DNA of 58,766 bases from an uncultured Methylococcaceae bacterium (lineage in GTDB: Bacteria > Pseudomonadota > Gammaproteobacteria > Methylococcales > Methylomonadaceae): contig CAIYRS010000027.1 of the NCBI GenBank assembly GCA_903928685.1, forward strand, positions 1 through 58,766. The letters run 5' to 3'. Position 1 is the stretch's first letter. The number at the start of each line of letters is the position of its first letter. The translations under genes were made by a program, and so were the position numbers. This document shows positions 37,178-49,300 of this stretch, in pieces. The notes below the pieces were generated by a model. The model saw nothing but the letters and a program-made list of their open reading frames with translations. It was not told where the DNA came from and did not search any database.

Positions 37178-39586
37178 TTAGTTTTCAGCCACACCCAAAC
37201 CATAAGGCCATTGCCAGTTCTGGATTTCCGGCATGTCTTCCCCGTGTTTGTAAATGTATTGCTTATGGTCGATTAATTTATCGCGGATGTATTGCTTCAA
37301 ATACACCGCTTGATTACGCAAACGCGGCACGCGGTCGATAACATCGGCGACTAAATGGAACCTGTCCATATCATTCATCACCACCATATCAAACGGCGTA
37401 GAGGTCGTGCCTTCTTCTTTATAGCCACGGACATGCAGATTGCAATGGTTGGTGCGGCGATACGCCAAGCGATGGATTAACCAAGGATAACCATGATAAG
37501 CAAACACAATCGGCTTATTTTTGGTGAACAGCTCATCAAAATCTTTATCCGACAAACCATTGGGATGTTCGCTATTAGGCTGCAATCGCATCAGGTTGAC
37601 GACATTAATCACGCGGATTTTTAAATCTGGCACTTTGGTACGCAAAATATCCACCGCCGCCAAGGTTTCCAAAGTTGGCACATCACCCGCACAAGCCATC
37701 ACTACATCTGGCTCATCGCCGTAATCATTACTGGCCCAATCCCAAACGCCAATGCCTGCTTCACAATGTTTCATCGCCGCATCCATATTCAGCCACTGTG
37801 GCGATGGCTGTTTGCCCGCGACAATCACGTTGACATAATTTCGGCTACGCAAAACATGGTCGGTCACCGACAACAAAGTATTGGCATCAGGCGGCAAAAA
37901 CACCCGCACCACTTCGGCTTTTTTATTGATGACATGGTCGATAAAGCCCGGATCTTGGTGAGAAAAACCGTTATGGTCTTGTCGCCACACATGCGAGGTC
38001 AGCAAATAATTTAACGATGCCACTGGCCTGCGCCACGGAATACGGTTACAGGTTTTCAGCCACTTGGCATGTTGGTTAAACATGGAATCGACAATATGGA
38101 TAAAGGCTTCGTAGCAAGAAAAAAAGCCATGCCGCCCAGATAATAAATAGCCTTCCAACCAGCCTTGGCAGGTATGTTCGCTGAGGATTTCCATCACCCG
38201 CCCGTCTTGTGATAAATCGGTATCTTCCGGCAAGATTTTTTCCATCCAGACCCGCGAAGTCGCCTCGAAAATATCATCCCAACGGTTGGATGCGGTTTCA
38301 TCCGGGCCAAAAATACGAAAATTACCCTGCTCCATATTGTTTTTCATCACATCGCGCAAAAACCGCCCCATCACCCGCGTGGCTTCGCCATTGACTGCGC
38401 CAGGTGATGGAACATCTACTGCGTAATCTTGGAAATCCGGCAAACGCAAATCCCGCAATAAAATGCCGCCGTTAGCATGGGGATTATCGGTCATCCGGCG
38501 ATGACCTTGCGGGGCAAGCGCCAGCAATTCCGGCAACGGTTTACCATGTTCATCAAACAATTCTTCTGGGCGATAGCTTTTCAGCCACCGTTCCAGCAAT
38601 TCAATATGCTCCGGATTGTTCTGCATATTGGCTAATGGCACTTGATGCGAGCGCCAAAAGCCTTCGGTTTTTTTGCCATCGACGCTGCTAGGGCCAGTCC
38701 AACCTTTAGGCGTACGCAAAATAACCATAGGCCAAACCGGACGCGCCAAGGTTTCAGCCGGATTATCACGGGCATGGCTTTGGATGGCGTTGATTTCTGC
38801 CATACATTGATCCAACACACTCGCCATACGGGTATGGACAATTTCCGGATCGCTGCCTTCCACCAAATAAGGCCGATAGCCCAAGCCGGTAAACAATTGC
38901 AGTAATTCCTCTTCGTCTATGCGGGCTAAAATGGTGGGATTGGCAATTTTATAGCCATTCAAATGCAAAATCGGCAACACCGCGCCATCCCGACGTGGAT
39001 TAAGAAATTTATTGGAATGCCAAGCCGCTGCCATCGGCCCGGTTTCCGCTTCACCATCGCCAACCACACAGCAGGCGATTAAATCCGGGTTATCAAACAC
39101 CGCGCCAAACGCATGTGATAAGGCATAGCCCAATTCGCCGCCTTCATGGATAGAACCTGGGGTTTCTGGGGCGACATGACTAGGAATGCCACCCGGAAAG
39201 GAAAACTGCTTAAACAAGGCTTTCATGCCGACTTTATCTTGGGAGATATTCGGATAAAACTCGCTGTACGAACCATCCAGCCAACTATTGGCGACCATCG
39301 CCGGGCCGCCGTGGCCTGGGCCGCAGATAAAAATCATATTCAAATCATAGGCATTTATCAGCCGATTCAAATGCACATTGATAAAATTCAATCCGGGCGT
39401 CGTCCCCCAATGCCCTAATAAACGTGGCTTGATATGCGCCATTTTTAAGGGTTCTTTCAATAAAGGATTATCCAACAGATAAATTTGCCCAACTGACAAA
39501 TAATTGGCAGCCCGCCAATAGGCATCCATTCGCTCCAGCAATTCCGCCGTTACACGCAAGTCTTGATGATGTTGTTGCACGTTCAT
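37178..39586 (-). CDS. xfp: Phosphoketolase (xylulose-5-P / fructose-6-P)
   Basis: This 802-residue ThDP enzyme cleaves xylulose 5-phosphate or fructose 6-phosphate with phosphate to acetyl phosphate plus glyceraldehyde 3-phosphate or erythrose 4-phosphate. Motifs: [47 protein letters not shown] and the ThDP-binding [22 protein letters not shown]. The length is full. Its gene is 19 bp after ackA on the same strand, so the pair converts sugar phosphate to acetate and ATP (or the reverse). In methanotrophs this offers a carbon-saving branch from the RuMP cycle. Confidence 0.97.
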
Positions 39587-39605
39587 ACCCTCTTGTTTTA
39601 ATGGC

Positions 39606-40793
39606 TTAATAGCCTAGAAAAGCCTGTATTTGTCTAGCAATTTCCCGTTCTTCTTCGGCGTTGACCACCAAAATGCGCGAACGGCTGTCGGCGGCACTAA
39701 TATCCTGATTGTTATCGTTGGTTGTACTATTGGCGATCTCATCCAATACCAAACCCAAATGCGCCATGCCTTGCAGTATCTGACTACGGACGCTAGCGGC
39801 ATGAAAACCGATACCGCCAGTAAACACTAATGCAGACAAGTCACCAAGTATAGCGTAATAAGCGCCGATATATTTCTTGATGCGGTAACAGAACATCGCC
39901 AAAGCCAATACCGCCAAAGGCTCGTTTTGTTCCGCACCATGCAAAATAACCCGCATATCGGTGTCGCCAGCCACGCCTTTCAAGCCACATTGATGGTTTA
40001 ACATCGCCTCCAACTCGCTGAGGGTCATGCCAGATTTTTGCAGGGCGATGGCAATCATGGGGTCAATATCGCCGCAACGGCTCGCCATCATCAAGCCCTC
40101 AGTCGGGGAAAAACCCATCGAGGTATCCACGCTGATACCGTTGCGGACAGCGGTAGCACTGGCGCCGCCGCCCAAATGCAAGATGATGAGATTTAATTCT
40201 TTAGCAGGTTTACCTAATAATTCTGCGGCGGCAGTAACGCTGTGTTGACAAGAAATGCCATGAAATCCGTAGCGATAAAATGCCATTGACGTGGGTAAGT
40301 TATTTGGCAACGCATAACGTCCGGCATAGCCGGGAATTTGCCGATGGAATGCAGTATCGAACACCGCAAATTGCGCGACCGAAGGCAAAGCCTCCGCAGC
40401 CATTGCCATTCCCAAGCGATTAACTGGATTATGCAACGGGGCATACGCATCTAATTGCGGCAAGCGTGCTAATAAGTCGTCGGTAATGGCGACCAGACCA
40501 GTAAAGCTATCGCCACCATGCACAACCCGATGCCCAATCGCCACAACCGTCCATGCGTTTGCGGCAAGCAACTGCTGCCAGTGCGAAAACACCGCCGTTA
40601 AGGCTGTTTTGGCATCGTGCTCGCCCGCTTGCTGATGATGAATGCTGGCAGCATTCGCTGCTTTAACTTCAAGCGTTAAACCTTGCTCGCCATAATCAGC
40701 ATTCACAAACGCCTGCGCCAACAATCCCGTGGAAAACAAAGCGGTTTTGACCGACGTGCTGCCGACATTAATAATCAAAAAGTAAGCGTTCAT
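39606..40793 (-). CDS. ackA: Acetate kinase
   Basis: This 395-residue ASKHA-fold kinase interconverts acetyl phosphate + ADP and acetate + ATP. Visible motifs are the N-terminal [36 protein letters not shown] (catalytic Asp), [30 protein letters not shown] and [14 protein letters not shown]. It is the first gene of the ackA-xfp operon. NVGSTS replaces the more usual N(A/C)GSSS at the N-terminus, a mild variation. No pta gene is present, so acetyl phosphate comes from Xfp. Confidence 0.96.
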
Positions 40794-42170: not shown

Positions 42171-42525
42171 ATAACAATAAATCGCTATCGCGATGTTTAT
42201 TAAATCGGGTTCTCGCACCCGAAGGCGAGTTACTTTCTTTTGCGCCGCCTCGGCAACTGCTCCTGCGTTGCTCTACCTCCTGCATCCATGCAGTCGAAAA
42301 GCAAGTAACCAAAGAAAAGGCGGCCCGGTTGCCGCTCATGTCTTGCGCTCCTCGCATTTGTCGGGGGACGGCAAAAGGGGCTTCCTGCCCCTTTGCCGCC
42401 GCGCGGCTTCCATGCCGCACCCTTTATGCCCTTGGGTGCTTCGGGCTATTCCCGACAAATACTCCGGTGCTCGACGCGGCAAACGGGAGAAAAGCGCGTT
42501 ACTGCGTAACATCAGTTAATAATCT
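42171..42525. repeat. Long multi-hairpin repeat element, non-coding
   Basis: The 350-bp block has several facing pairs: CTATCGCGATG, GGGTTCTCGCACCC, CGAGTTACTTTCTTTTGC opposite AAGCAAGTAACCAAAGAAAA, CAAAAGGGGCTTCCTGCCCC, and GCGTTACTGCGTAACATC. Much of it is very GC-rich compared with its flanks. This resembles a dispersed repeat I recall from many proteobacteria. It occupies the TetR/EEP intergenic gap, and no gene is supported. Confidence 0.6.
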
Positions 42526-42556: not shown

Positions 42557-44062
42557 CTACTTAGGCGCAAACACCAACAAATACCCATTATGGTCAGACA
42601 CCCGCCCATAATCGCCTTCCGTAAACAACACCCTTGCCGACACCGCCTTTAACTCACTGCCTTTCTTCATAAAAACATAATCAATCCGATAATCGTCGGC
42701 GTTATAGCTTTGCCAGTAAGGGTCTTGTTGACGAAAATTCTGCTCCGCTAACTGATTGCCATTGGCTGCAAAATATTGGTCATCATACTGCCCATCCGCC
42801 ACTGCCAAACGATAACCTGGCGAGCCAACCGCAACATTAAAATCCCCACACAACAAAGTTGCGTTGACATGTGCACCGTGTTTTTCTGCCGCCCATGCTT
42901 GCAACCGTTGGAACTGTCCGGCAAAACCATCTTCCCACCAACTTAAATGTGCAGAAAACACATTTACAGCCCCCAAAAATGGCACCGTAATTTCTGCCAT
43001 CACCACCTTGCGGGAATGGATACTGAAAGCATCGTGGCTATCGGAAACATACCGGGCATCGTGGTTGCACATGGGATAACGGCTTAAAATGGCAACGCCT
43101 TCCCGATAGCGGTCAAAGCCCAAATGCGACCAATCGGTATGGATATAGAACGGCGTTGGTAAACGCTCATTAATAATCCGCGCCGCGTTAGACTGCCAAT
43201 CGCCGTTGCCGTTATTCCACAACTCTGCCACTTCCTGCAAACACACCACATCCACATCCAGCTCGTTAATGGCCTTGGCAATCTGGTTAAATTTTTCATC
43301 TTGATCGACTTCTTGATAACAATGCAAATTCAAAATCATCAAGCTTAACGGCTTACGTGCGTAACAATAATTATTACCCGCATTGTTATCCCAAAAAACT
43401 TGCCCGGCGCATTCGTAACTGATGCTGTATTCCAGCGCAAATGCCTTACCAACCCGCAACCACGCCTGCCAAATCTGCACGCCATATTGGTTAGGGTTTC
43501 TGGCATTGCTAAGCGCGGTTTTATCCCAATAATTGCGGCGAAAATGGCAAGCCGTGATTTTGCTGTGCCGCCAATTGTCAGTAGTCCAATGCAAATTAAC
43601 CTTATCAATAGCCAACTTGGCATTTACGGCGATAGTGACAGAAATAAATTTTTGCTGGTCTTGCAAGCGGCTAGCAAAAGCCAGATGCTGGATGACTTGG
43701 TTTTGGGCAAGCATAACCCCAGAATCCGCTTGGCTAAGATAGTTATTGCCTTGCTGATTATCCCAATACTCACCGCCCAACACCCGATAACGCAAACCAA
43801 ATTGGATATTACCCGGCAACGATTGCGCCGGACTAGCAAGGCAATGGCACTCTGCCAACCAATACTCGCCACCATCCTGCGCGTTAGCATGAAACTGCGC
43901 CGATAAGCCCTGCCACTGCCCATCTTCACCAGCCCAAAACACCTCCACCTGTTTCTCATAGCTAAGATTTTCCACCCACATAAAAAACCTTAGCGTTTGC
44001 TGCTGGGTTTTATTTTTTCGGCTAATGCTATTTTCTATATAAAGCAGGCGGATTTGAGCCAT
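42557..44062 (-). CDS. Tandem CBM21 - endonuclease/exonuclease/phosphatase fusion protein
   Basis: This 501-residue protein has no signal peptide and so is probably cytoplasmic. Residues 22-110 and 135-235 are two CBM21-type starch/glycogen-binding modules: WVENLSYEKQVEVFWAGEDG and RYRVLGGEYWDNQQGNNY in the first, VNLHWTTDNWRHSK and GQVFWDNNAGNNY in the second. Residues 240-499 are an EEP (DNase I-like) domain with all key residues: Asn245 (LNLHCYQ), Glu277 (VCLQEV), His372 (SAHLSWW), Asp407/Asn409 (LCGDFNV), Asp461 (RIDYVF) and Asp490-His491 (VSDHNGYL). It lies beside glycogen genes on the same strand. EEP enzymes cleave phosphoester bonds in nucleic acids, lipids or inositol phosphates. A glycogen-bound phosphatase is an attractive but unproven role. 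Confidence 0.85.
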   Translation of the reverse strand: MAQIRLLYIENSISRKNKTQQQTLRFFMWVENLSYEKQVEVFWAGEDGQWQGLSAQFHANAQDGGEYWLAECHCLASPAQSLPGNIQFGLRYRVLGGEYWDNQQGNNYLSQADSGVMLAQNQVIQHLAFASRLQDQQKFISVTIAVNAKLAIDKVNLHWTTDNWRHSKITACHFRRNYWDKTALSNARNPNQYGVQIWQAWLRVGKAFALEYSISYECAGQVFWDNNAGNNYCYARKPLSLMILNLHCYQEVDQDEKFNQIAKAINELDVDVVCLQEVAELWNNGNGDWQSNAARIINERLPTPFYIHTDWSHLGFDRYREGVAILSRYPMCNHDARYVSDSHDAFSIHSRKVVMAEITVPFLGAVNVFSAHLSWWEDGFAGQFQRLQAWAAEKHGAHVNATLLCGDFNVAVGSPGYRLAVADGQYDDQYFAANGNQLAEQNFRQQDPYWQSYNADDYRIDYVFMKKGSELKAVSARVLFTEGDYGRVSDHNGYLLVFAPK

Positions 44063-44169: not shown

Positions 44170-44421
44170 ATGACTACCATTACTTTCGATACCCAAGAGC
44201 TGGTCAATGAACTTGAAAACAACGGATTTACTCGACAACAATCAGAAGCTGTCGTATCTGTACTGAAAAAATCACAAAATGAATTGGCAACTAAGCTAGA
44301 TATTGCACCACTGGCATCTAAAACAGACTTGCTTGAACTCAAAGTTGATTTGGTTAAATGGGTGGGGGCTTTAATGTTGGCACAGGTTGCTGTGATTGCT
44401 GCTTTGGTCAAGTTGCTTTGA
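44170..44421 (+). CDS. DUF1640-like small coiled-coil membrane protein
   Basis: This 83-residue protein has the CCDC90/DUF1640 pattern: TITFDTQELVNELENNGFTRQQSEAVVSVLKKSQNELATKLD, a coiled-coil segment, then a C-terminal membrane helix WVGALMLAQVAVIAALVKLL. Proteins of this kind often lie near addiction or mobile genes, but here it stands between glycogen genes on the opposite strand. A GAGGCATC ribosome site precedes the ATG and a strong terminator follows. Confidence 0.8.
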   Translation: MTTITFDTQELVNELENNGFTRQQSEAVVSVLKKSQNELATKLDIAPLASKTDLLELKVDLVKWVGALMLAQVAVIAALVKLL

Positions 44422-44460: not shown

Positions 44461-44500
44461 AGGCCTTTCAGGTTTTAAAAACCTGAAAGGCCTTTTTTTT
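44461..44500 (+). terminator. Rho-independent terminator after the DUF1640 gene
   Basis: AGGCCTTTCAGGTTTT pairs with AAAACCTGAAAGGCCT, followed by eight T. The stem resembles that at 2083-2117. It overlaps the last bases of the minus-strand GH57 gene. Confidence 0.85.
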
Positions 44501-46100
44501 ATCTGATGATTGGCGGTCGGTAATCACGGAAATCAATATCTGGAAAAATATTGTCCATGATTTCCAATGCCGATACATAGCGCTCGTCCAGCCTGTTTTT
44601 GCGAATACCGTCGTGCAGATAGTTGAAGCGGGCGAGATGGTCGGTTAGCTGTTTTTTAGCGTAATTAACGTTAGTGTCTGCTTTTAAAATGAAGGCCCAA
44701 TCAGAAGCTTGTGCTAATAACAGCGAGCGGGCGGCTTGGTTTAAGGCGCGTTTTTGCAATGGGCTTAGCGCTAGGCTATGTAAATCTGTTGCCAGTTTTT
44801 CCATTTCTGCTTCGGCTTTGTAGAGCAGCGGGTAAATCCAATCATTGGTTTCGTTAAGCCAGTAACTGGAATAGCCTTGATCGCCCCATGTGGACGCGGA
44901 GGGTTGGGCGATTTGGTGTTGCGTAATGCGCGTTAAATAGTCAATGCAACTGAGGGTTTCCACGTTACACGTCGCTTGGCTTGCCAACCGTAATACCGCT
45001 TCTAGCCAGTACGGGCCTTCAAACCACCAATGCCCGAACAATTCAGCATCATAAGGCGCTACGATAATCGGCGGCCTAGCCATTTTTGCCGATAGCGCGG
45101 TGAGTTGTTGCTGGCGTTTGGCAATAAAATCTTCAGCATGTTGCTTAATTTTGGCACGGGCTAGGCGCGGGTTATAAACTGCTTTGGGCTGGTCATTACC
45201 TGTGACGCGATAATACTTAATGCCTGTGTTGATACGGGTTTCGCCGTCCAAAATATACGGGCCGATGTAGTCCAAATCCAAATCAAAGCCAATATCGCGG
45301 TAGTATTCGCGGTAATCGCCATCGCCCGGATAGCCTTCGCTGGCACTCCACACTTGTTTGGATGACATGGGATCGCGGGCAAAAGCCAGTACGCCGTTGC
45401 CGCAATCTAGCGGCGCATACACGCTGTTGACTGGCGGCGGGGTGGCTTGACCAATACCGTGGCTATCGACAAAAAAATAGCCGACACCTGCGGCTTTCAA
45501 CAAGGTTTCCAAGCCCGGATAGTAAGCGCATTCCGGCAACCAAAAACCTTGTGGGGCAAAGCCAAAGTGGGCTTTAAAGCAGTCGATGCCGATGTTGATT
45601 TGATTACGCACCGCAGTTTCGCTGGTGTTTAATAACGGCAAAAATCCGTGGGTGGCTGCGGTGGTTATCAGCTCTAAACGGCCTGTTTGCTGATGGTGTT
45701 TGAATGCTGCCAGTAAATCACTCTGATAGCGTTGTTGATAACTGGCTAGACTGGCTTTAAAAAAACGTCGGTATAAACGCGCCAGTTTTTGCAGTTCAGG
45801 CTGTTTGCGGGTGCGGATAATTTCTTTTTCCGCCAATGCCAACAAGCGTTGCAGATGTGCCAGATAGCGGCTTTGCAATAACTCGTCCGCCAACATAGAA
45901 ATCAGCGGTGGCGACAGCGATAAGGTTAATCGGCAAGGGATTTGGTCTTGTTGCAAACGCTCCAGCACCCCTAGCAAAGGGATATAACATTCTGTTATTG
46001 CTTCAAATAACCAATTTTCTTCAAAAAAATGCGGATGTTCGGGGTGGCGCACGTACGGTAGATGGGCGTGCAGCACAATACTAAGAAAACCTTGTTTCAT
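44499..46100 (-). CDS. GH57 glycoside hydrolase, probable 1,4-alpha-glucan branching enzyme
   Basis: This 533-residue GH57 protein has HAHLPYVRHPEHPHFFEENWLFEAITECYIPLL at the N-terminus. The nucleophile is Glu190 in GFWLPECAYYPGLE and the acid/base Asp351 in PYDAELFGHWWFEGP. The WSASEGYPGDGDYREYYRDIGFDLD region is characteristic of GH57 branching enzymes (about 530 residues) rather than the larger 4-alpha-glucanotransferases. It would introduce alpha-1,6 branches in glycogen in the cytoplasm. It overlaps the upstream DUF4912 gene by ATGA, a pair seen in other bacteria. Confidence 0.9.
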   Translation of the reverse strand: MKQGFLSIVLHAHLPYVRHPEHPHFFEENWLFEAITECYIPLLGVLERLQQDQIPCRLTLSLSPPLISMLADELLQSRYLAHLQRLLALAEKEIIRTRKQPELQKLARLYRRFFKASLASYQQRYQSDLLAAFKHHQQTGRLELITTAATHGFLPLLNTSETAVRNQINIGIDCFKAHFGFAPQGFWLPECAYYPGLETLLKAAGVGYFFVDSHGIGQATPPPVNSVYAPLDCGNGVLAFARDPMSSKQVWSASEGYPGDGDYREYYRDIGFDLDLDYIGPYILDGETRINTGIKYYRVTGNDQPKAVYNPRLARAKIKQHAEDFIAKRQQQLTALSAKMARPPIIVAPYDAELFGHWWFEGPYWLEAVLRLASQATCNVETLSCIDYLTRITQHQIAQPSASTWGDQGYSSYWLNETNDWIYPLLYKAEAEMEKLATDLHSLALSPLQKRALNQAARSLLLAQASDWAFILKADTNVNYAKKQLTDHLARFNYLHDGIRKNRLDERYVSALEIMDNIFPDIDFRDYRPPIIR

Positions 46101-46807
46101 AACAGTTGGTAACCTTTACCTGAAGCATTACCGCGCTTACTGGATGAATAGAATGTGGTTGGCAATGGATTGCTATCAAGCAGCAAACTTTGTTGATGGG
46201 GTAACGGCTCACCTGCCCCATAGCTAGAGCCATGGTTAGGGATTTGGATATGATTGGAATTACGGGTGGCGAAAAATTGCTGGTCAGTACCCAATAAACC
46301 GATACTGGCAGAATAGGCATAGGCATTGCCCATCGGCGGCAAGGTTATTTGTTGCTGTTGCGAAGCGCGGTCAATTTCGACATCAAACCAAGTGGTATCG
46401 GGAAGGCTGTCGCTATTTTCGGTTTCAACAAATAAGCGCAACGCAGGTTTGGCGGCGATGTTTTTGGCCTCGCGCAGTTGCGATTTTAACTCGGGCAGAT
46501 TCCAGTACACATAAACATGCTGGGGATCAACGGGCAGCAACATTAATTTGGGGGTTTCCAGAATGGGGCGGCAAGTCAAACTAACGGCATTGCTGATTTC
46601 TAATAATTCATTGGCTGAAAGCGTTGTCGTGGCGTTGGTTTGCTGGCTTTTTACAGTGAATTGCGGCGCAAAGTTATTGCTGATAACGTTGCTGATGGCT
46701 TGCAAGTGCTGGGCAGAAAACGCTGGCGCAAGGCTGTTTTTATGGCGCGAAGTCACATCCTTTGCTGTAAAAGCGCTGGTAACATCTTGTCTTGAATCCG
46801 AAACCAT
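46097..46807 (-). CDS. DUF4912 protein, partner of GH57
   Basis: This 236-residue protein has a DUF4912 core (PKLMLLPVDPQHVYVYWNLPE, then ALRLFVETENSDSLPDTTWFDVEIDRASQQQQITLPPMGNAYAYSASIGLL). The N-terminal 80 residues are low complexity, and so is the Ser/Gly-rich tail. The function of DUF4912 is unknown; it is typically encoded next to GH57 branching enzymes, suggesting an accessory glucan-binding or assembly role. ATG 46807 lies six bases after GAGG; ATG 46810 and TTG 46819 are alternatives. Its stop overlaps the GH57 start. Confidence 0.82.
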   Translation of the reverse strand: MVSDSRQDVTSAFTAKDVTSRHKNSLAPAFSAQHLQAISNVISNNFAPQFTVKSQQTNATTTLSANELLEISNAVSLTCRPILETPKLMLLPVDPQHVYVYWNLPELKSQLREAKNIAAKPALRLFVETENSDSLPDTTWFDVEIDRASQQQQITLPPMGNAYAYSASIGLLGTDQQFFATRNSNHIQIPNHGSSYGAGEPLPHQQSLLLDSNPLPTTFYSSSKRGNASGKGYQLL

Positions 46808-47047
46808 CATCAGCCTCAACCTTATTGTTAACGTCTATTTGTCCATTTTTTGGTAGCAAAGGCGGCTTGGTTGTTGCGTTTGTTACGGCAACCAGCGATG
46901 CCTATCTAGTCTCTAAAAAACTCTAACTGTTGGTCATAGCGAATGCAAGCGTTTTTAAGACCGCGTCCTTGCAGGATGACAAGCCAGTTTACGGCTTATT
47001 GGCAGGTATAGCGCAAATACTTTCAATTGTTTGCGAGGGATAGTTAT

Positions 47048-47155: not shown

Positions 47156-49252
47156 TCAATCTACTTGCAGCGGATTTTCAAAAATGGCTATGGTTTGGCT
47201 ATTGACCAAATAGCCAGACTCCGGCAAAGGCTGTTGTTTTTTAGAGGCGATAATATCGTTTGGTGATGGCAACGAGGTGTCTACTGCCAAGCACCATGAT
47301 TTTCCGTCGATTTCCGGCAAGGCAACGGTGATGGCTTGATCGGACATATTCATGACAATATGCAAATCCGCTTCATGTTCAGCAATACCTGCCAAGGTAA
47401 ACGCCAAAACCCGTGCATCCGCGTCATGCCATAGTGGCGTATCCAATTCCACACCATGCCAACTGATGTCTTTCAAGGTTTTGCCTGCAACCGCTTTGCC
47501 TGTCAAAAACCGTCTACGCATAATAGAAGCATGACGTTTCCGTAAAGAAATCATCATTTTTACGAACCGGAAAATATCGGCATTTTCTTCCAGCTTATCC
47601 CAATCTAACCAACTCAAGGCGTTATCTTGGCAATAACAGTTGTTGTTGCCTTGTTGGCTATTTAAGAACTCATCACCAGCCAACAACATCGGTACACCGT
47701 GGCTTAACAATAAAATGGCATAAACATTTTTGACTTTTTGTTTACGCAGCGCCAAAACCACACTGTCGTTGCTATCGCCTTCAACACCACAATTAAAACT
47801 CAGGCTGTTATTACAGCCATCATTGTTGTTTTCGCCATTGGCAAAATTGTGTTTATGGTTGTAGCTGAATAAGTCGTATAGGGTAAAGCCGTCGTGGCAA
47901 GTGACAAAATTGACGCTGCTGATCGGTAATCCACCTTTGTACTCGTACAAATCACTACTGCCGCAAATACGCGTTGCCAATTCTTGCACCACGCCTTTGT
48001 CACCACGGATAAAGCGGCGCACCACGTCGCGGTAGCGCCCGTTCCATTCAGCCCAACGGTAACCGGGGAAACTGCCCACTTGATACAAACCTGCCGCATC
48101 CCAAGCTTCGGCTATCAATTTGGTTTTCGCCAATTGTTCCGACAGCTCTATGCCCCATAAAACTGGCGGATTTTGCAGCACTTCGCCGGTTTCGCCACGC
48201 GCCAAGGCACTGGCTAAATCAAAACGGAAGCCATCAACGTGCATTTCCCGCACCCAGTATTCCAAGCAGCCAATGATAAATCCAGCAACTAGCGGATGGT
48301 TAGCGTTGACGGTATTGCCGCAACCCGTGTAATCGCGGAAGATGCTTTTATCGTGGTTATCCAGATGATAAAAAATATTGCCGCCAATACCACGGAAATT
48401 GATGACTGGGCCATTTGCCCCGGCTTCAGCGGTATGGTTAAAAACTACGTCCAAAATCACACCAATACCGGCTTGATGCAGGGCTTTAACTAAATCACGG
48501 AATTCCCGCAAATGCGTGCCTAATTCCGGGGTAACGCAATAACCAGGATGCGGGCTAAAAAAGCTGTGGGTGCTATAGCCCCAATAATTTCTTAAGCCAA
48601 GTTCAGCGGTTTTTTCGGGGACATCTTGCTCGTCAAATGCCATCACTGGCAATAACTCCACATGAGTAATGCCGAGTTTTTGCAAGTAGGGGATTTTTTC
48701 TATCAGACCCGCAAATGTGCCTGGATGGGCAACTTGGGCGGATTGATGGCGGGTAAAGCCGCCAACGTGGATTTCATAAACAATCGCCCGTTCACTGCGT
48801 ATCCGTAACGGGGTATCACCTTCCCAATCGTAGCTGTTGTCCACGACTACGCCACGCATCGCCGTTAAGCCGTTGTCTCCTGGCAAGCACGCTTTTTTGC
48901 GGTTCCAATGTTTGTCAGAAACCGCTTTTGCCCAAGGATCCAGCAATTGTTTATCTTTATCAAAGCGATAACCCACTTCACGGCTTTGGTCTGGGCCGTC
49001 CATACGCCAAGTGTACCAAGTGCCTATGGGTAATTTACAAACGTAAATATGCCAAGAAAAAAAAGTGCGGTTATTTTCTTTTTCTAAGGTAATGATCTGG
49101 AAGGGTTCTTGGCTATCGACGCTATCGAACAATAGCAATTCAACCTGATCCGCATGATGGCTAAAAATTGAAAAATTCACGCCTTCGGGATCAGGTTTAG
49201 AGCCTGATGGATAAGGGTTACCGTGCTTTACTTTATATTTTCTTTCTTCCAT
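47156..49252 (-). CDS. glgX: Glycogen debranching enzyme (GlgX-type, GH13)
   Basis: This 698-residue isoamylase-type enzyme hydrolyses alpha-1,6 branches in glycogen. An N-terminal CBM48-type domain (HGNPYPSGSKPDPEGVNFSIFSHHADQVELLLFD) precedes the GH13 barrel: ILDVVFNHTAE, DGFRFDLASALAR (nucleophile Asp near 345), LIAEAWDAAG (acid Glu near 382) and NFVTCHDGFTLYDLFSYNHKHN. YWGYSTHSFFSPHPGY is typical of GlgX/TreX. The frame extends 12 codons upstream, but ATG 49252 (MEERKYKVKHG) has a GGA site. The gene is on the same strand as DUF4912, GH57 and CBM21-EEP, 350-bp upstream of DUF4912. Confidence 0.94.
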   Translation of the reverse strand: MEERKYKVKHGNPYPSGSKPDPEGVNFSIFSHHADQVELLLFDSVDSQEPFQIITLEKENNRTFFSWHIYVCKLPIGTWYTWRMDGPDQSREVGYRFDKDKQLLDPWAKAVSDKHWNRKKACLPGDNGLTAMRGVVVDNSYDWEGDTPLRIRSERAIVYEIHVGGFTRHQSAQVAHPGTFAGLIEKIPYLQKLGITHVELLPVMAFDEQDVPEKTAELGLRNYWGYSTHSFFSPHPGYCVTPELGTHLREFRDLVKALHQAGIGVILDVVFNHTAEAGANGPVINFRGIGGNIFYHLDNHDKSIFRDYTGCGNTVNANHPLVAGFIIGCLEYWVREMHVDGFRFDLASALARGETGEVLQNPPVLWGIELSEQLAKTKLIAEAWDAAGLYQVGSFPGYRWAEWNGRYRDVVRRFIRGDKGVVQELATRICGSSDLYEYKGGLPISSVNFVTCHDGFTLYDLFSYNHKHNFANGENNNDGCNNSLSFNCGVEGDSNDSVVLALRKQKVKNVYAILLLSHGVPMLLAGDEFLNSQQGNNNCYCQDNALSWLDWDKLEENADIFRFVKMMISLRKRHASIMRRRFLTGKAVAGKTLKDISWHGVELDTPLWHDADARVLAFTLAGIAEHEADLHIVMNMSDQAITVALPEIDGKSWCLAVDTSLPSPNDIIASKKQQPLPESGYLVNSQTIAIFENPLQVD

Positions 49253-49300
49253 TGGATTCCACGAGGTTGAACCGTGGCACAGCCACATTACCGCTTATGT

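Follow-up and report, generated by a model that had tools for sequence, protein, structure and literature searches.

What does a bacterium do with an EEP domain fastened to two glycogen-binding modules? The question is raised by a gene in a 58,766-nucleotide stretch of DNA (contig CAIYRS010000027.1 of assembly GCA_903928685.1; the whole stretch is called the window below) from the 3.38-Mb genome of an uncultured Methylococcaceae bacterium, which, judging from its relatives, would be a methanotroph. The gene encodes a CBM21-CBM21-EEP protein. We consider the chances about even that this is a cytoplasmic, glycogen-bound phosphatase that removes phosphate monoesters from glucosyl residues, a prediction drawn from domain content, conserved residues and gene context. 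The fusion is conserved and, apparently, undescribed in the open-licence literature. A preliminary description of the locus, made from the sequence alone, had already suggested a bacterial glycogen phosphatase; the relationship to MapP, the PLD-type partner and the family-wide spread are additions to it.

Domain architecture and active site

The open reading frame starts with ATG, contains no internal stops and is divided as follows:

42557..44062, minus strand: CBM21-CBM21-EEP protein, 501 amino acids (open reading frame and Pfam)
43733..43999, minus strand: CBM21 domain 1, about residues 22-110 (CBM_21 profile, alignment to 2m83)
43358..43666, minus strand: CBM21 domain 2, about residues 133-235 (CBM_21 profile, alignment to 7qf7)
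42560..43345, minus strand: EEP catalytic domain, about residues 240-501, MapP-like (Pfam, profiles, tree)

The Pfam family Exo_endo_phos matches residues 257-491 (E 1.3e-21; 77.8 bits against a cut-off of 24.5), and CBM_21 matches two stretches (E 7.9e-17). A genome-wide profile search gave these two copies 44.0 and 35.2 bits, above the cut-off of 28.9, and no other CBM_21 match in the genome; none was found in 14 control genomes. Both families are present in all 19 aligned full-length proteins, that of the window and those of 18 further loci, and in all 19 the residues that we take to be the EEP catalytic set are unchanged: N245, E277, H372, D407, N409, D461, D490 and H491. The N-terminus, MAQIRLLYIENSISRK, is by eye unlike a signal peptide, and the protein is probably cytoplasmic. 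On these points the preliminary description was right: it had two CBM21 modules before the EEP domain, every catalytic residue present (by the role these residues have in the family) and no signal peptide, and the significant CBM21 match on which it made its reading depend was found.

Among solved structures, 3TEB is closest in sequence to the EEP part, and PPP1R3A/B/C and a fungal glucoamylase to the CBM parts. The predicted structure of the whole protein is of fair to good quality (pLDDT 80.1, pTM 0.77), but poor at residues 180-188 and 430-459.

Relationship of the EEP domain to MapP

Of the enzymes to which the EEP domain can be compared, the closest in kind appears to be MapP of Enterococcus faecalis, which is reported to act on maltose 6-phosphate, taking off the phosphate (PMC3737437). 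A MapP profile, built from 8 sequences, gave the EEP domains of six carriers 135-152 bits, against 23 for E. coli YbhP and 19.5 for exonuclease III (ExoIII). A tree from which four or five long-branch or poorly bounded rows were left out groups CBM21-EEP with the MapP branch at 97/94, and when the long-branch rows are kept the joint clade stands at 84/91. The top solved match, 3TEB, is itself a MapP relative. The domain thus seems to group with E. faecalis MapP apart from the nucleases, though the approximately unbiased (AU) tests given below leave doubt. We set aside an ExoIII-like or YbhP-like nuclease as the leading interpretation; the profile scores are against it, and the AU tests leave it some room.

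The two proteins share stretches such as SHxG-x3-Y-x-EG and H-x-SWW at about 27% identity. MapP is a single-domain protein linked to a phosphotransferase system (PTS), whereas ours carries two CBM21 modules and lies in a glycogen locus; a scan of six neighbours in the window showed no PTS protein such as the maltose PTS, malT, found beside MapP. In another gammaproteobacterial locus (L053, 1513-2298) a MapP-like gene lies between glycogen phosphorylase and PTS IIBC, which connects the EEP branch with the use of alpha-glucan beyond the Firmicutes. A record filed as an Enterococcus phage (L140, OR846610.1) contains an apparent E. faecalis chromosomal maltose locus and is probably host DNA in the assembly.

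Glucan-binding residues of the CBM21 modules

In the structure of PTG with cyclodextrin, ligand site I comprises R187, W193, Y196, C235, W246, N248 and N253, and site II comprises N177, F180, E181, K182, Y203 and D214 (PMC9582199). These were mapped through HMMER alignments to 2m83 and 7qf7, with PTG numbering then assigned by eye. The first module has a site II-like N32-x-x-Y35-E36-K37, corresponding to the first four site II places and varying as N/S32 and D/E36, together with W100, N102 and N107 of site I. The second keeps four of the seven site I residues (W164, W224, N226, N231); it has no equivalents of R187, Y196 and C235 and does not conserve site II. Conservation was counted over 41 rows (28 distinct) chosen by length and by the strings GDFN and LQEV, a choice by which 7 of 47 fetched CBM21-EEP loci dropped out. 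K37, N107, W164, W224, N226 and N231 are invariant, Y35 is found in 36 of the 41 and N32 in 28. Since the same strings selected the rows, counts for E277, D407 and N409 in this set would be circular, and the catalytic residues are accordingly taken from the 19-protein alignment. The two modules look complementary in their PTG-type ligand sites, and the pair probably binds alpha-glucan.

Gene neighbourhood and the PLD-type partner

Upstream of the EEP gene and on the same strand lie genes for GH57, DUF4912 and GlgX proteins, which the preliminary description had named as encoded with it; the picture is complicated by a small reading frame on the opposite strand between GH57 and the EEP gene, so that a single transcript is not assured in this genome.

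44170..44421, plus strand: 83-amino-acid open reading frame between the EEP gene and GH57 (open reading frame list)
44499..46100, minus strand: GH57 branching-enzyme-like protein, Glyco_hydro_57 plus BE_C (Pfam); NCBIfam branching-enzyme models match under their cut-offs
46097..46819, minus strand: DUF4912 protein (Pfam)
47156..49288, minus strand: GlgX glycogen debranching enzyme (TIGR02100, over cut-off)

The association with glycogen genes recurs across genera. The 18 full-length loci and a hand-picked set from further genera gave 43 loci with the gene, or 40 once three duplicates were removed; in the neighbour counts, frames below 130 amino acids without a match were skipped, and some loci are short. 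A glycogen gene lies within the locus in 31 of the 40. In 29 the next same-strand gene upstream is that for GlgA or the GH57 branching enzyme, and in most of the homologous loci read one of these two is directly adjacent. The counts leave out two fetched loci, L097, which is without the EEP gene, and L084, where an overlapping frame masks it and the order by coordinates is GlgA-EEP-PLD.

Downstream, the next same-strand gene encodes a PLD-type protein in 34 of the 36 loci where one is visible. This protein has two PLD domains and an N-terminus modelled, weakly, like alpha-glucan-binding domains (domain identities taken from locus L010), and it accompanies the CBM21-EEP protein in that both occur in 154 genomes. 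In the genome of the window its gene is on another contig. Outside the family there are just weak partial matches, in 9 other of 274 genomes.

Two further features of the window may be recorded. Positions 42300-42499, immediately beyond the 3' end of the EEP gene, have a G+C content of 61.5%, against 41-49% around them, and a 27-base piece of this segment occurs once in the window and otherwise only in four loci covering the same place. Adjoining genes for phosphoketolase and acetate kinase lie near the glycogen genes, at 37178-40793.

Spread of the fusion

The 18 full-length loci are 55-65% identical to the window protein; 17 are labelled Methylobacter or Methylococcaceae and one Gammaproteobacteria. 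Within the family, 163 of 237 genomes (22 of 29 genera) have matches, 158 of them at E < 1e-100, a judgement by E value in which full length was not confirmed for each, and the remaining five are weak or partial. Carriers include Methylobacter tundripaludum SV96 and M. luteus IMV-B-3098. In a drawn sample of 369 genomes of the class, in which rare cases may be missed, 19 have a match, one of them the window's own. In the other 18 the match begins no earlier than query position 223 and is confined to the EEP region, so the full architecture was not found outside the family in this sample. Among plasmids, 58 records matched in the EEP part alone, and no match spanned 80% of the query. A viral origin was considered and rejected: no viral contig fits the patterns, and five matches in phage collections cover the EEP part only.

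On a Ruminococcus contig (L021, 4969-10061) the products of six consecutive genes match the CBM21 part; the N-termini of most resemble signal sequences, and the two products scanned hold two CBM_21 stretches each.

Single-domain EEP proteins of about 280 amino acids also occur in methanotrophs of the family (L111-L118; L123, L124, L126, L127), at 36-40% identity. Four of them are 81-87% identical among themselves, and the four loci read share no common neighbourhood.

Proposed function and alternatives

The two CBM21 modules would hold the protein on alpha-1,4-glucan chains while the MapP-like domain hydrolysed phosphate monoesters of glucosyl residues, either in glycogen itself or in maltodextrins released from it; a divalent metal probably takes part, as in the EEP superfamily. 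Phosphate removal would keep the chains usable for the enzymes of branching, debranching and synthesis whose genes lie beside it, and the phosphatase may perhaps act together with the PLD protein. The substrate, the presence of phosphate on the host's glycogen and the teamwork with the partner are all surmised. A reason to need such an enzyme is at hand: every branching enzyme tested, from bacterial to human, has a lower affinity for alpha-glucan that carries phosphate (PMC13011383), and the EEP gene often follows that for a branching enzyme. To the authors of that 2025 paper, glycogen phosphate in insects, yeasts and bacteria, all of which they describe as lacking laforin, is an interesting subject for speculation (PMC13011383).

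In open-licence sources we found no paper that joins 'glucan phosphatase' with bacteria and exonuclease, nor, among the matches listed, any mention of CBM21 together with methanotroph names; the excerpted text of a Chem Rev 2024 review contains neither CBM21 nor glycogen phosphorylation nor phosphorylated glycogen. One study of deep-sea mussels concerns endosymbionts that are presumably methanotrophs. In these, a 'maltose 6-phosphate phosphatase' is among the massively transcribed genes, grouped with transporters (PMC13401447); be it the fusion or a single-domain relative, this is a hint of use.

Several results weigh against a glycogen phosphatase. In the AU tests, groupings of CBM21-EEP with YbhP-like proteins (p 0.101) or with ExoIII (p 0.058) are not rejected, the values on a smaller set being 0.275 and 0.018; a tree placing CBM21-EEP with MapP alone, other relatives apart, is not the best (p 0.181), and the EEP domain is only 26-31% identical to MapP-like proteins. 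The single-domain EEPs score equally well on the MapP profile; six of their loci were fetched and four read, and in those four nothing nearby matches the glycogen reference proteins, so this branch is not glucan-specific. The preliminary description would have given up its proposal had homologues lain consistently away from glucan genes, with nuclease activity and no glucan binding; the single-domain relatives lie away from such genes in the four loci, the fusion in most loci does not, and the proposal keeps in its favour the kinship with MapP and the link to glycogen genes across genera. GlgA occurs in 220 of the 237 family genomes, too widespread to discriminate, and we rejected it as a co-occurrence marker (Fisher p 0.031); in 69 of the genomes of the family GlgA occurs but a strong CBM21-EEP match does not. 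Only four of the seven PTG site I residues are kept in the second module, which is without site II. Evidence for phosphorylated methanotroph glycogen was not found in our search, and no glucan dikinase is apparent in the genome, since its one PPDK_N match is an 806-amino-acid frame, perhaps a phosphoenolpyruvate synthase. Finally, the PLD partner suggests that a phosphodiester may be involved. It is because of the single-domain relatives, the 69 genomes and the missing dikinase that we go no further than even chances.

A wider form of the proposal, which we offer tentatively, is a dedicated methanotroph module for glycogen dephosphorylation, in which the CBM21-CBM21-MapP-like phosphatase and a glucan-binding PLD enzyme would together clear phosphomonoesters and phosphodiesters. 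Alternatively, the two might edit phosphodiesters in two steps, the PLD partner opening a glycogen phosphodiester, either a cross-link or a head group, and leaving a monoester for the EEP domain to remove; this seems to us rather unlikely.

It is unlikely, too, that the substrate is a soluble phosphorylated maltodextrin or other sugar phosphate, with the CBM21 pair just placing the enzyme where these arise. We know of no maltose PTS in methanotrophs, which we count against it, and the invariance of K37, W164, W224, N226 and N231 suggests that contact with the polymer matters; in its favour is the action of MapP on maltose 6-phosphate (PMC3737437).

The preliminary description also allowed for a glycogen-anchored nuclease or lipid phosphodiesterase, and E. 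coli, in which the EEP gene ybhP lies beside the PLD gene clsB much as the fusion lies beside its partner, might suggest one, ClsB being annotated as a cardiolipin synthase. We hold this to be improbable: YbhP reaches only 23 bits on the MapP profile, which is favoured by more than 100 bits for our protein, the PLD profile matches its two Protein Data Bank (PDB) entries weakly (cardiolipin hydrolase, 5.5e-4 and 8.4e-4), and glycogen genes adjoin in most loci read. That the protein is a non-catalytic or regulatory glycogen binder, by analogy with PTG, whose CBM21 targets protein phosphatase 1 to glycogen (PMC9582199), we can hardly credit, since none of the eight EEP active-site residues varies in the 19 proteins.

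Comparison with known systems sets the proposed glycogen phosphatase apart from each of them. The PPP1R3/PTG targeting subunits are homologous in their CBM21 domains (2eef, 7qf7, 2m83), but PTG recruits a separate protein phosphatase, whereas the CBM21-EEP protein carries its own EEP domain. BT3783, a mannosyl-6-phosphatase according to its PDB title (4c1r), has the EEP fold and takes a 6-phosphate off a glycan; it is 19% identical, and its substrate is mannose. Laforin, the animal enzyme that takes phosphate off glycogen and in which CBM20 is joined to a dual-specificity phosphatase, offers an analogy of function, a glucan-binding module coupled to a phosphatase, although both its catalytic and its CBM families are different and its activity is proven where ours is predicted. 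The protein does not have the dual-specificity domain of the laforin and SEX4 type, its catalytic domain being EEP. Ours would be a MapP-related enzyme with glycogen-binding modules, working like laforin from outside the laforin family.

Implications

With a conserved candidate in named strains, phosphate on bacterial glycogen becomes approachable by gene deletion. Should the glycogen phosphatase be real, it would represent a second, unrelated route of glucan dephosphorylation, useful to compare with Lafora disease and for starch engineering. The dephosphorylation module, if true, would give bacteria a counterpart of laforin that arose independently, and would imply that their glycogen carries phosphate.
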